From Gaiellales bacterium (GTDB lineage Bacteria > Actinomycetota > Thermoleophilia > RBG-16-64-13), in contig JAAYAL010000077.1 of assembly GCA_012719395.1 (NCBI GenBank), forward strand, positions 1-64,000: a stretch of DNA of 64,000 nucleotides, in the 5' to 3' direction. The notes beneath the pieces were generated by a model. The model was not told the DNA's origin. It saw only the letters and a list, made by a program, of their open reading frames with translations, and did no database searches. Positions 19,966 to 24,551 of this stretch are shown here, piece after piece (within the stretch, counting starts at the first letter, position 1; every line of letters starts with the position of its first letter). Made by a program: the position numbers and the translations under genes.

Positions 19966-20095
19966 GGGAACCTCGCAACGAAGAAAGGAATGCAACGAGC
20001 CCTGCGCCGGCGCAGGGCCGCATTTCAGTATATCAGTGGACCCCGTGACCCGGCGTCGGCCATGGGCCCACGTGGGGCATGTGCCTACGGCAACG

Positions 20096-20120
20096 AAAAG
20101 GAGCCCCCTGCGGGACTCCT
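20096..20120 (-). terminator. Terminator-like hairpin upstream of thrS
   Basis: Minus strand AGGAGTCCCGCAGGGGGCTCCTTTT. Confidence 0.55.
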
Positions 20121-20293
20121 CATGATAGGTGGGCCGTGCTGGAGGCTCTTCGAGCAGTTGTTGCTTGAGCGTGTCGCTGTCAAATCAGACAACGAATAGT
20201 CTGCTACGAGTATTGCTGTCACGGAGTGGTCATGTGGTGCGACACCCGGTCTCTGCTCGGCCACTCAGCCAAATTCCGGTACCAAAGCGTGTC

Positions 20294-20500
20294 CTAATTG
20301 CCTTGGCGTCTCTCCCAGTCGTTGATCTGCGCGTTTATGAAAGTCGCCAACTCGTCTGCGGCTTGCGCGCCAACAATCTGCACGACATCCCCTGCTGTCT
20401 GCCACATCGGCGAGTCGCCGGGCTCACGTCCAGCGCAACAAGCCGTCAGTCGATTCAGTGCCGCCTCCAGCCGATAACCAGGGTCCTTGCTCACTGTCAA
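20294..20500 (-). CDS. Small hypothetical protein
   Basis: 68 aa ORF preceded by SD AAAGGAG; no recognisable family. Confidence 0.35.
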   Translation of the reverse strand: MTVSKDPGYRLEAALNRLTACCAGREPGDSPMWQTAGDVVQIVGAQAADELATFINAQINDWERRQGN

Positions 20501-20673
20501 CTCCTTTCCTATGAACGAGCGACTCAGCTTGCCAGCTCCATACTACTCAAACCGGTAAGGCGAATCGTCGTGACATTTCCCTATGGAATGCCGAGGCCGC
20601 CGATTTTGGCCCGGACTCGAGCCGGGATGAATCGCGCGTGGTTCCCGGCACGCCACCGCGTATCCATGGCATC

Positions 20674-21216
20674 CTATTTGCTCTTCGGATAGAGCGCCGT
20701 CTCCAGCGCGGATAGCACTGCTCTCTCGCTCTCGTTGATCGGTCGGTCATAGTCAGCGCAGACGGCGGCAAATCGCGAGTACATTGAGCGTAGAAGTTCA
20801 GCCAGTGAGGTGCGGTTAGCGGAGTCGTATATCTCGAAGAGAGACACGAACCCGGGGATTTGCAGCTCATATATGTTGGGATTGTCACGAAGCAGGGTCA
20901 TGAAACTATCACGGAGGTCGGGAAGAACCGCCTCCTTAAATCCCTTAGCTTCTAAGAGTTCTTCCGTTAAGTCGGAAAAATGGAAATAGGCCAGAACCTC
21001 CGCGAGGTCAATGAGAATGACGACTTCATCATCATCGAGTTCACCATCTGCGCTGAGGACGTCTATTGCAATTGCCAGGATACTCAACTTCAACTGCCGC
21101 TTCGGGTCGCGACTGTTGAATGTGAATATCGGGCTGTCCAGGACGGCCTCAAGGGATAGCAGATCACCGATAAGTCCGGCAAGAATATCTTTGCTGTGAG
21201 GACTGAATTGCGTCAA
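20674..21216 (-). CDS. TerB-like helical domain protein, hypothetical
   Basis: LSILAIAIDVLSADGELDDDEVVILIDLAEVL resembles TerB-type acidic helical repeats; SD GGAGG before TTG start. Confidence 0.5.
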   Translation of the reverse strand: MTQFSPHSKDILAGLIGDLLSLEAVLDSPIFTFNSRDPKRQLKLSILAIAIDVLSADGELDDDEVVILIDLAEVLAYFHFSDLTEELLEAKGFKEAVLPDLRDSFMTLLRDNPNIYELQIPGFVSLFEIYDSANRTSLAELLRSMYSRFAAVCADYDRPINESERAVLSALETALYPKSK

Positions 21217-21485
21217 GTCGCGCCTCCGCCTGGTCGAAAGGATGGATGGATAAGCTTCTGACGGAGAAGGAGAGCATTGGCAAGTAGTCGGTAGTCATGC
21301 AGTTTGAATCCAGAAGGAGAAGCCGTAAGTAATCGCTGACGCGAGAAGCGAGCTGATGCTACGAACGCGTTAGACGCCCCAACGGACCGCCTCGGTCGTG
21401 GCCCCCTTATGCTTCGGTCTGGGGCACGATGGCGGCGTGGGGCTGCCATCGTGCCTTGACAGCACCACCAGCGGGATAGCCGCTT

Positions 21486-21575
21486 AGACATCGACCAGAT
21501 CTTTCCATTCTTGACGGAATCCGACAAGAAGCGGAGCACTGGCGGCTGCATTTCGTAGTACTTGGGAACGGCCAT
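21486..21575 (-). pseudogene. Remnant of Mrr-type restriction endonuclease N-terminal domain (Mrr_N)
   Basis: MAVPKYYEMQPPVLRFLSD then, after a frame change, RQEWKDLVDV followed by stop; resembles the start of Mrr_N proteins. Confidence 0.4.
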
Positions 21576-21775
21576 TGATTCCCCCCTCGCTCGCGACGCA
21601 GTGTATCACTGCAATCATTAGGTGCGCTTTCCGTCCGACCCCCCTGCTAGGCTGAAATCTGCTGCGGTGTGGCGTTCCACCAAACCGGCGCAGAGGTATG
21701 CGGAACCCTCCCACAAGAGGGCAGCCGATAGCCCGCCTCCCCAACGAGGTAGCACGTGCGGGGGAGCTCAAACTT

Positions 21776-21828
21776 ACCTGAACCTGAACGCCTGGCTTGG
21801 CCATGCGGTTCAGGAGGTTCGTTCAGGT
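21776..21828. repeat. Four-copy CCTGAAC/GTTCAGG repeat cluster (two direct, two inverted)
   Basis: CCTGAAC at 21777 and 21783; GTTCAGG at 21808 and 21821; ACCTGAAC...GTTCAGGT and CCTGAACC...GGTTCAGG exact 8-bp inverted repeats. Confidence 0.75.
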
Positions 21829-22027
21829 GGAGTCGCGAGAAGCACGGAAGGGCGAAGCCCTACGGCGCACCCTCGCCGCTCGCGGCATCCCGCTCACGGC
21901 TCCTCAGGCCGCCCAGCTCGCCCTCGACCTCCTCCGCCTCGCGGGGGACGGGCTGCTGGTGTCGTCGGCGCCGACCGACCATGAAGGCCACGAACCGCAC
22001 CTTCGGCAACGGAGCGGGCAGCGGTAA
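21803..22027 (+). CDS. Small hypothetical protein upstream of rep
   Basis: MRFRRFVQVESREARKGEALRRTLAARGIPLTAPQAAQLALDLLRLAGDGLL; co-oriented with rep/recombinase; no family recognised. Confidence 0.3.
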   Translation: MRFRRFVQVESREARKGEALRRTLAARGIPLTAPQAAQLALDLLRLAGDGLLVSSAPTDHEGHEPHLRQRSGQR

Positions 22028-22116
22028 CGGGCGCGTCAGGCGCAGCGCAGGGGGCGGGGCGCACCGGAACCGGCGGCGGCGCCAGACGCAGCGGGGCCGG
22101 TGCAGCCGGCCTTGGC

Positions 22117-22959
22117 TTGTCTGATGCACATATCTCGGGAAACCCATGGCGAGCGGGGGTCAGCTATGCGGCTACGCACCGCAACGGGGAACTGGTGCAG
22201 GTCAAGGCCAGCGCCGGGACTGGCGGCGGTGGTGGTGGACCGCGTGCGGCGATCGGGGGATTCAGTCGTCAGTCCCGCAGGCGTCTTCTCTACCTTCTCG
22301 CCTCCATCGACCAGCAGGCTTCCGGACTGCCGCTCTTCGTCACGCTGACCTACCCGGGCCAAGATTGGGAAACCTACGCGGCCAATATGAAACGCCACCT
22401 GGACAACTTCCACCGCTGGCTCGCCTATCATCGTCCCACCACGTCGGCCATCTGGCGTCTCGAAGTACAGAAGCGCGGTGCTCCCCACTTCCACCTGCTC
22501 GTCTTCGGCGCGGGATTCCTCGATTGCCTCTTGGTGGCGGAAGCGTGGTGGCGCATCGTGGGGTCGGCGCAGGAGTCTCACCTGCTGGCCGGAACGCAGG
22601 TCAAGGCCTGCGCGCGCTGGCGTGAAGCCACTCGCTACATGGCGAAGTACATGGCCAAGCCGCAGGAAGAGACTGCAGAAGTCCCTGAGCTGTGGAGGCT
22701 CCCGGGGCGGTTCTGGGGCGTCTGGGGAGCCAAGAACTTGCCAGTGTGTCCGGAATACTGGACCTTGACTCCGGAAGTCGCTGCGCGCTTCAGACGCGTT
22801 CTGCGGGGCCATGCCAAGAGCCGGGGCTATCGTCTGCGCAACGGGTCCTCAGTAACCGCCTTTCTCCCCCACGCGGCGGCGGAGCGGGCGCTCCTCTTCT
22901 GTCAGGCCCAACGCAGGACTGCGTCCGACTCGGATGTCGGTCTGGCCGAGAGCAACTGA
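22117..22959 (+). CDS. HUH-superfamily rolling-circle replication initiator-like protein
   Basis: Motif I FVTLTYPG, HUH motif APHFHLLVF, motif III-like RYMAKYMAK; start codon uncertain (TTG at 22117). Confidence 0.75.
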   Translation: MSDAHISGNPWRAGVSYAATHRNGELVQVKASAGTGGGGGGPRAAIGGFSRQSRRRLLYLLASIDQQASGLPLFVTLTYPGQDWETYAANMKRHLDNFHRWLAYHRPTTSAIWRLEVQKRGAPHFHLLVFGAGFLDCLLVAEAWWRIVGSAQESHLLAGTQVKACARWREATRYMAKYMAKPQEETAEVPELWRLPGRFWGVWGAKNLPVCPEYWTLTPEVAARFRRVLRGHAKSRGYRLRNGSSVTAFLPHAAAERALLFCQAQRRTASDSDVGLAESN

Positions 22960-22994
22960 CGGCTATAGTGGGAGCAGCGGCAGAAGGAGGCGAC

Positions 22995-24491
22995 GTGACC
23001 GAATCCGGCAATCTGGCCAGTAAGACCACTCCCTGCGTCATCTATGCTCGAGTTTCTACCAAGGAGCAGCAGGAGGAGGGCTACTCCATCCCTGCGCAGC
23101 TTAAGGCCGTGCGTGCGTACTGTGCCAGGGAAGGCCTCAGGACCGTGGAGGAGTTCGTGGAAGCGCAGAGCGCGGGCAAGGCAGGGCGCAAGGGCTTTGG
23201 CCGTATGCTGGCCTATCTAGGGGCGCACCGCGAGGTGCAGGTGGTCGTGGCGCATAAGCTCGACCGCCTCTATCGCAACTTCGCCGACCAGCTGCACCTG
23301 GAAGAGGATCTCGGTGTGCGCGCCCGCTACGTGGTGGGTGATGTACCGCAGTCACCTCAGGGGGAACTGCTGCGGGACGTGCAACTATCCGTAGCCAAGT
23401 TCTACCTGGGAAACCTCCGCGAGGAGGTCAAGAAAGGCATGGAAGAGAAGGCGTCCCAAGGGGGCTGGCCGTCAGGGCGGGCGCCTCTCGGCTACTTGAA
23501 CGACCGAGAAACGCGTGGGCTGATCATGGACCCACTTCGGGCGCCCCTGGTGCGACACGCCTTCGAGCGCTACGCGACGGGCCTTGTGTCGCTCTCGGCT
23601 CTCGCGGACGAGCTTCACGCCATGGGTCTTCGCCACATGCGATCCGGCGCGAAGGTCTACCCGTCTTCCCTTCACTATGTGCTGAAACATCCGGTCTACT
23701 GCGGGCTGGTCCGGTACAAGGGTCAGCTATTCCGGGGCCAACATGAGGCGATTGTCTCGCCAGAGCTCTTCGATCGCGTCCAACAGGCCTTCGGGCCGAA
23801 CCGCCACGGCAACATGGAACAGAAGCACCTCTTCGCCTTGCGGGACTTCCTTTGGTGCGGGGAGTGCGGCTGCAAGATCACTGCGGAGCGTCAACGCGGC
23901 CACGTCTACTACCGCTGCACCAAGGGCAAAGGGCGCGCAGCCTGCGGCCAGCGGCATTACAGCCGCGAGGAACAACTGGAGGAGCAGGTGGAAGGCATCC
24001 TCTCTACCATCGAGATAGGCCCGGATATCCTTGCCGCCCTGGTGGAGGAGTCCAAGCTATTGGACCGGGCGGCGGTGCGTGGGAACGATGCGGAACGACA
24101 AAGCCTGCAGTGCGCCATTGCCGCAAGCGACCGCAAGGCCGGGCGGCTCCTCGACATCTACCTGGCGGGCAACGTGGACGGCGCGATCTACCGCCAGAAG
24201 GCCGCAGAGTTGGCTCGCGAGCGACTCACTTTCGAACATCGTTTGGAAGCCTTGGCGCATAGGTCATCGGACAGAACTGCCTGCGTAGAGGCACTAGCCA
24301 AGACTGCAGCATCGGCACGTATCCGCTTTCGGAGCGCCAACGTCCAACAAAGGCGCGAGGTGCTCGCCACTGTGCTTTCGAACGCGACGCTGCGGGATCA
24401 AGAAATAGTCGATTTCCAGCTGAAAAGCCCCTTCGACGTCCTTCAGATGGACGCCCAAGGGGCTCTCATTTCGGAAAAGTGGGCGTTATAG
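22995..24491 (+). CDS. Large serine recombinase (site-specific integrase)
   Basis: VIYARVSTKEQQEEGYSIPAQL resolvase domain, PLGYLNDRETRGLIMDP recombinase domain, zinc ribbon CGECGCKITAERQRGHVYYRC; SD GAAGGAGG before GTG. Confidence 0.92.
   Translation: MTESGNLASKTTPCVIYARVSTKEQQEEGYSIPAQLKAVRAYCAREGLRTVEEFVEAQSAGKAGRKGFGRMLAYLGAHREVQVVVAHKLDRLYRNFADQLHLEEDLGVRARYVVGDVPQSPQGELLRDVQLSVAKFYLGNLREEVKKGMEEKASQGGWPSGRAPLGYLNDRETRGLIMDPLRAPLVRHAFERYATGLVSLSALADELHAMGLRHMRSGAKVYPSSLHYVLKHPVYCGLVRYKGQLFRGQHEAIVSPELFDRVQQAFGPNRHGNMEQKHLFALRDFLWCGECGCKITAERQRGHVYYRCTKGKGRAACGQRHYSREEQLEEQVEGILSTIEIGPDILAALVEESKLLDRAAVRGNDAERQSLQCAIAASDRKAGRLLDIYLAGNVDGAIYRQKAAELARERLTFEHRLEALAHRSSDRTACVEALAKTAASARIRFRSANVQQRREVLATVLSNATLRDQEIVDFQLKSPFDVLQMDAQGALISEKWAL
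24423..24464 (-). terminator. Terminator for tRNA-Val embedded in 3' end of recombinase ORF
   Basis: Minus strand AGCCCCTT...AAGGGGCT with inner GTCC/GGAC pairing, followed by TTTT. Confidence 0.6.
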
Positions 24492-24551
24492 GATTTGAAC
24501 CTATGGCCTCTTCCGCGTCAAGGAAGCGCTCTCCCCCTGAGCTAAACGCCC
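24480..24551 (-). tRNA. tRNA-Val (GAC)
   Basis: GGGCGTTTAGCTCAGGGGGAGAGCGCTTCCTTGACGCGGAAGAGGCCATAGGTTCAAATCCTATAACGCCCA cloverleaf. Confidence 0.92.

Follow-up and report, generated by a model that had tools for sequence, protein, structure and literature searches.

A probable minimal integrating plasmid with a large serine recombinase at the 3′ end of tRNA-Val

In a 64,000-nucleotide stretch of a Gaiellales genome (hereafter the window), a gene for a HUH rolling-circle replication initiator (Rep) lies beside a gene for a large serine recombinase (LSR) that runs into a tRNA-Val gene. Do these genes form one integrative element, where does that element begin and end, and what kind of element is it? 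The first-pass annotation, made from the sequence alone, proposed a compact Rep–LSR element at 21776–24551, possibly of an undescribed class. The source assembly, a 2.43-Mb draft in 92 contigs, is 98% complete with 0.8% contamination.

The rep–int pair and its sister copy

The conserved part of the locus carries the following features, with copies compared to the sister copy described below.

21776–21828, plus strand: candidate double-strand origin (putative nick site), a hairpin that has CTTG close to its tip; DNA fold z = −4.2
21827–22027, plus strand: small ORF A (66 aa), which is conserved in the two copies; 64% amino acid identity, dN 0.27 versus dS 0.67
22102–22143, plus strand: 42-bp block at the start of rep, identical in both copies, possible cis site; longest exact run in a 76%-identical alignment
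22117–22959, plus strand: rep, HUH (Y2-type) replication initiator, 280 aa, PF23343; start codon uncertain, frame open upstream
22995–24491, plus strand: int, large serine recombinase, 498 aa, with PF00239, PF07508 and PF13408 above cut-offs; stop codon inside the tRNA when integrated

Both proteins read in the first pass were recovered with profile support. Rep matches Pfam family PF23343 (REP_ORF2-G2P) at E 1.4e-15 and 57.8 bits, above the cut-off of 27.8, and contains the HUH motif (HFH at residue 124) together with the two-tyrosine motif (YMAKY at residue 174). Its single-sequence AlphaFold model is of low confidence (pLDDT 36.5), and no sequence match to Rep was found in the PDB. The recombinase is complete, as had been stated: the Resolvase, Recombinase and Zn_ribbon domains each exceed their cut-offs, an RVS motif at residues 19–21 contains the catalytic serine, and the protein matches the integrase family phrog_95 at 1.8e-84.

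Upstream of rep, the origin-like repeat cluster of the first pass resolves into a genuine hairpin, with none of 200 shuffles as stable, and with z = −2.7 in the sister copy and 85–90% identity between copies; its function as an origin is only a proposal. By analogy with other rolling-circle origins, the CTTG hairpin is a candidate nick site. The small ORF noted earlier likewise stands, as ORF A. A 47-aa ORF at 21981–22124 was considered as a second small gene and dropped, since mismatch phases favour the rep frame. A search of IMG/VR with part of the 42-bp block returned no match.

A search of the window's own genome disclosed a sister copy on another contig, C64 (L006 3445–6381), with 76% identity over 2,945 bp, in which rep and int are in matching orientation beside a tRNA-Val(CAC) gene. 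One genome thus carries two copies at two different tRNA-Val genes, GAC in the window and CAC on C64, and the two-gene cassette that the first pass suggested looking for elsewhere is found as this paralogue. Protein identity between the copies is 78% for Rep and 76% for the LSR, with dN/dS of ~0.12 for rep and ~0.13 for int at a dS of ~1.2. Judged from these comparisons, purifying selection has kept rep and int since the two copies diverged. Because the same pair, with the same tRNA position, recurs at tRNA-Val(CAC) and both genes are under selection, Rep and LSR form a single mobile unit.

Across several hundred related genomes, IMG/VR, and phage and plasmid records, only these two copies were found, both in one genome. 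Pattern scans of the genome contigs and IMG/VR yielded no Rep relatives, and IMG/VR gave a single weak match to the LSR. Members of the Rep family occur in an Inoviridae record (the closest phage match, 39% over 137 aa), on small non-mobilizable actinobacterial plasmids, and on a 6.4-kb contig. The last of these (L045 1–6385), from a relative in the phylum, encodes a Zot-like ATPase with a PF23343 Rep and looks inovirus-like. Rep relatives in four genomes (G142, G364, G395 and G095) have no related LSR in the neighbourhoods read.

Junctions, attP and the cargo slot

The junctions of the sister copy are fixed by a natural uninterrupted site. In G010, a related genome of the same family, a recombinase gene (LSR2) 90% identical to one that precedes the element on C64 directly abuts tRNA-Val(CAC), leaving the C64 site uninterrupted. 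L006 1–2011 aligns to L086 2705–694 and L006 6304–6411 to L086 702–593, which is adjacent DNA, and the two L086 alignments overlap by exactly 9 bp, ATGGTGGGC. The C64 insertion is accordingly flanked by a 9-bp direct repeat equal to the tRNA 3′ end including CCA, and measures 4,301 bp with one repeat (L006 2003–6312). With the insert removed, the C64 LSR2 frame reads into the tRNA (...GGSNYELMVGDTGLEPVTSAV), as does LSR2 of G010 (...GGSNYELMVGDTGFEPVTSAV).

LSR2 belongs to a larger element (L006 221–2116; L100 6385–13533), which in G010 includes an XRE regulator, a DNA methylase, a Replic_Relax protein and a TrwB/TraD-like coupling protein. In the window's genome this larger element is truncated where contig C64 ends, and the small element is inserted at its right end, an instance of tandem accretion.

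We then placed the window junctions, which are listed here with their surroundings.

20098–20121, minus strand: rho-independent terminator that belonged to tRNA-Val(GAC), now displaced and lying beyond the element; stem-loop of −18.6 kcal/mol, T-run 20094–20097
20129–20134, no strand: attL core GTGGGC, displaced tRNA-Val 3′ end; repeats 24479–24484 and matches L006 2006–2011, part of the 9-bp repeat
20135–20168, plus strand: element-side arm of attL, in the circle the last LSR codons and stop (tail ...EKWAVLEALRAVVA); best match to the C64 arm, tails alike
20160–21629, no strand: variable cargo slot, different from the sister's; identity to the sister is at background left of 21629
20674–21216, minus strand: cargo ORF, 180 aa, function unassigned; weak PHROG hint to a tellurite-resistance family, E 0.024
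24479–24484, no strand: attR core GTGGGC, within the tRNA-Val 3′ end; repeats 20129–20134
24479–24551, minus strand: tRNA-Val(GAC), the target gene, left intact by the insertion; ARAGORN

The left border was placed at 20129–20134 because the element-side left arm of the C64 copy matches there. Across the 64 kb searched, this arm has a single strong match, at 20128–20162, with a score of 40 against shuffle maxima of 35–36 and 26 at the next best place; the search used a parse of the C64 LSR2 frame and preceded the G010 comparison. The integrated element therefore extends from attL core to attR core, 20129–24484, or 4,350 bp with a single core copy, and comprises a conserved backbone (21629–24479) and the cargo slot. 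The window element's own direct repeat is only 6 bp, and the window site has no same-species empty version. A simple direct-repeat search for a long att repeat beside the tRNA found nothing above shuffles; the real repeat is 6–9 bp and came to light by way of the C64 tandem and G010. A left border at 21629, where similarity to the paralogue ends, was rejected, as the uninterrupted site puts the border beyond the cargo.

These coordinates revise the first-pass limits. The left junction lies 1.65 kb further left than 21776, the right border falls inside the tRNA 3′ end (24479–24484) so that the tRNA body up to 24551 is host sequence, and the element measures 4.35 kb, including 1.5 kb of extra cargo, instead of ~2.7 kb. 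The tRNA-Val 3′ end itself was correctly named: the 3′ end of tRNA-Val(GAC), on the minus strand, overlaps the LSR stop. Int thus sits at the end of a site-specific insertion with a short att core (9 bp on C64, 6 bp in the window), the position of an LSR-type integrase.

The surroundings of the window insertion are consistent with this site. The displaced terminator lies 7 bp beyond attL, and in the rebuilt site it directly follows tRNA-Val. The gene order tRNA-Val–thrS is kept in five relatives, and in the relative G004 the two genes adjoin with a short gap, as expected from the rebuilt site. Among relatives, the interval separating thrS from tRNA-Val(GAC) ranges from ~0.1 to 6 kb and contains different genes (L027 5194–11259, L029 5811–8521, L030 6998–8193, L031 6406–7952).

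When the int frame is read round the circle through attP, it ends in ...EKWAVLEALRAVVA in the window and continues as ...EWWAVVNALRTCYR... on C64, and the circle-form tails of the two copies are alike (EKWAVLEALR versus EWWAVVNALR). Because these tails agree, attP is part of int, lying in frame at its 3′ end, and integration swaps the LSR tail for codons read from the tRNA.

The backbone is accompanied by cargo, at variance with the first-pass statement that no cargo gene was present: the slot holds the unassigned 180-aa ORF in the window, and that of the sister copy encodes a DUF4062 protein (L006 2227–3345, minus strand; PF13271 at 1.7e-28, and phrog_15411 at 1.6e-96 over nearly full length). 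The window slot has a GC content of 55% versus 65% for the window, and its 180-aa ORF has no match in Pfam, NCBIfam or PADLOC. A second ORF in the slot, 21213–21575 on the minus strand, has no database match and is perhaps a remnant; its first residues, MAVPKYYEMQPPVLRFLSD, resemble the start of Mrr-type restriction enzymes.

Nature of the element

The element is very probably a minimal integrative rolling-circle replicon, that is, an integrating plasmid, inserted at tRNA-Val by its LSR. The LSR would recombine attP, in frame at the 3′ end of int, with the tRNA-Val 3′ end, the crossover falling within GTGGGC. Insertion, which the junctions show, leaves the tRNA intact, moves its terminator 4.35 kb away and changes the C-terminal tail of the LSR. 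Once the element is excised, the CTTG hairpin at 21776–21828 would be nicked by the HUH Rep and the circle would be copied by the rolling-circle mode, with one interchangeable cargo segment carried between attL and the origin. Excision, replication and the nick site are predicted from gene content and DNA structure; among the 92 contigs of the draft assembly, no circular form was seen. Transfer of the element between cells is likewise presumed. Riding along with the C64 neighbour, the LSR2 element, is possible, because the G010 relative of that element encodes the Replic_Relax and TrwB/TraD-like coupling proteins.

That last association also lends itself to a different account, in which the element is mobilisable (IME- or CIME-like): it would be carried along by the larger LSR element at tRNA-Val(CAC) or by some other conjugative element, and Rep would serve as the relaxase as well. 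HUH Reps are able to play both roles, the C64 copy is inserted exactly at the right end of the LSR2 element, and the 90%-identical G010 relative has the two proteins just named. In the window, however, no larger element lies beside the copy, no mobilisation gene was recognised in the element, and Rep resembles plasmid and phage initiators (PF23343) with no match to a relaxase family; we regard this account as possible but somewhat unlikely. Still less likely is an origin from a filamentous, inovirus-like phage (phiRSM type), with the virion genes lost and a remnant or satellite left. The Inoviridae record is the closest phage match to Rep, the Zot-like ATPase on the 6.4-kb contig accompanies a Rep relative from the phylum, and phiRSM has a serine recombinase at the 3′ end of tRNA-Ser (PMC3816273). 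Yet the phiRSM recombinase is small and that of the window element large, Zot, coat and assembly genes are unmatched in the scanned ORFs of both copies (very small coat proteins could escape), and continued selection on both rep and int argues that the element is no wreck.

A decayed actinomycete integrative and conjugative element (AICE), cut down to rep and int, would account for a rolling-circle Rep paired with an integrase at a tRNA, as AICEs combine these parts; ~14% of AICEs use serine recombinases, eight of these at tRNA-Leu in Mycobacterium (PMC3218068). Against such decay, no tra/FtsK-like gene is present in either copy (ORF lists for 20129–24484 and L006 2003–6312, with Pfam searches on the cargo ORFs), Rep scores 15.5 bits where the RepSA cut-off is 34, and copies 60% different at the synonymous level share the same reduced gene set with intact frames, which argues that the small form is itself stable. 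We consider it doubtful, on a par with the phage remnant. Finally, before the second copy was found, Rep and LSR could have come from different elements lying side by side, with the tRNA flank a coincidence. Both suspicions had been raised in the first pass and neither survived: the gene pair, its spacing and its tRNA position recur at the second tRNA-Val, and comparison of the uninterrupted G010 site with C64 gives junctions at the tRNA 3′ end and one insertion spanning both genes. This explanation is now barely credible, and the claim that a single integrative element, located at a tRNA 3′ end, holds both Rep and LSR agrees with both the paralogous copy and the uninterrupted site.

The integrating-plasmid reading can be set against the closest known systems. 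The phiRSM-type filamentous phages of Ralstonia share a pII-like Rep, a phage-coded serine recombinase and a small genome, but have a small resolvase-type recombinase with coat and assembly genes, whereas the window element has a large recombinase, no virion gene and attP inside int (PMC3816273). AICEs, among them pSAM2 and those of Mycobacterium that use serine recombinases (PMC3218068), are likewise integrative with a rolling-circle Rep, some with an LSR-type integrase at tRNA-Leu, and the window element shares the combination of integrase and rolling-circle Rep at a tRNA gene. They differ in their Tra (FtsK-like) transfer protein and regulators, neither of which is in the window element, and its Rep belongs to PF23343 and does not reach the RepSA cut-off. 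Integrative and mobilizable elements, in the parts of the literature drawn on here (PMC5704250, PMC5357655), are small and integrated, with serine-recombinase integration and rolling-circle proteins on record; compared with those parts, the window element has no recognised relaxase and targets a tRNA 3′ end.

Given these precedents, the suggestion of an undescribed class was too strong; an undescribed minimal variant, a very small form of known integrating plasmids, fits. Its parts come down to a single Rep, a single LSR, an origin and a cargo slot, and few integrative replicons smaller than this could be drawn. More tentatively, and with confidence well below even, the two copies might represent a family of their own among minimal integrative rolling-circle replicons, one whose attP is formed by the 3′ coding end of int. 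The free circle would make the tail ...WAVLEALR and the inserted state a tRNA-read tail, a swap that could set the direction of recombination and replace a separate directionality factor; none was recognised in the element. The in-frame attP thereby offers a testable switch model.

The recombinase clade and its tRNA and tmRNA targets

The first pass regarded a serine recombinase at a tRNA as unusual. In 2011 tRNA genes were described as rare locations for serine recombinases, examples being the AICEs of Mycobacterium and the phage phiRSM1 (PMC3218068, PMC3816273), and the LSR tree shows that in this lineage the view does not hold. Among 35 LSRs, a supported clade of 27 (100/98) includes both copies, and 23 of its 27 members lie at a tRNA or tmRNA 3′ end versus 0 of the 8 outside, a count that describes this sample, in which some clade members were collected by similarity to the window LSR and branches outside the clade are long. 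LSR2 is counted among the 23 through G010, and the wider PF07508 set served as control. Likewise, 11 of 14 class-level LSRs with E below 1e-60 have 3′ ends in an antisense tRNA or tmRNA. The clade's targets comprise tRNA Val, Met, Ala, Pro and Lys as well as tmRNA, so far as these placements go indicating that tRNA and tmRNA 3′ ends are the usual target in the clade of the window LSR. The element thus helps to mark out an LSR clade aimed at such ends, and LSRs with conserved, well-defined targets are useful in genome engineering.

The clade members of the same class and phylum (within L049–L068 and L076–L096) resemble the window LSR in that the gene ends inside an antisense tRNA or tmRNA 3′ end. 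They differ in their neighbours, mostly HTH proteins, ImmA-like peptidases and Replic_Relax proteins, with a possible, weak Rep only at L049/L053. In L062 and L063, LSR genes of the clade end inside the 3′ part of the tmRNA gene (ssrA). The nearest LSR outside the genome, that of L049/L053, has 39% identity and lies at tRNA-Ala(CGC). In L053 (4129–8759), the gene before it encodes a 354-aa protein that matches Rep_trans weakly (E 0.007, below cut-off), possibly a second kind of Rep–LSR element.
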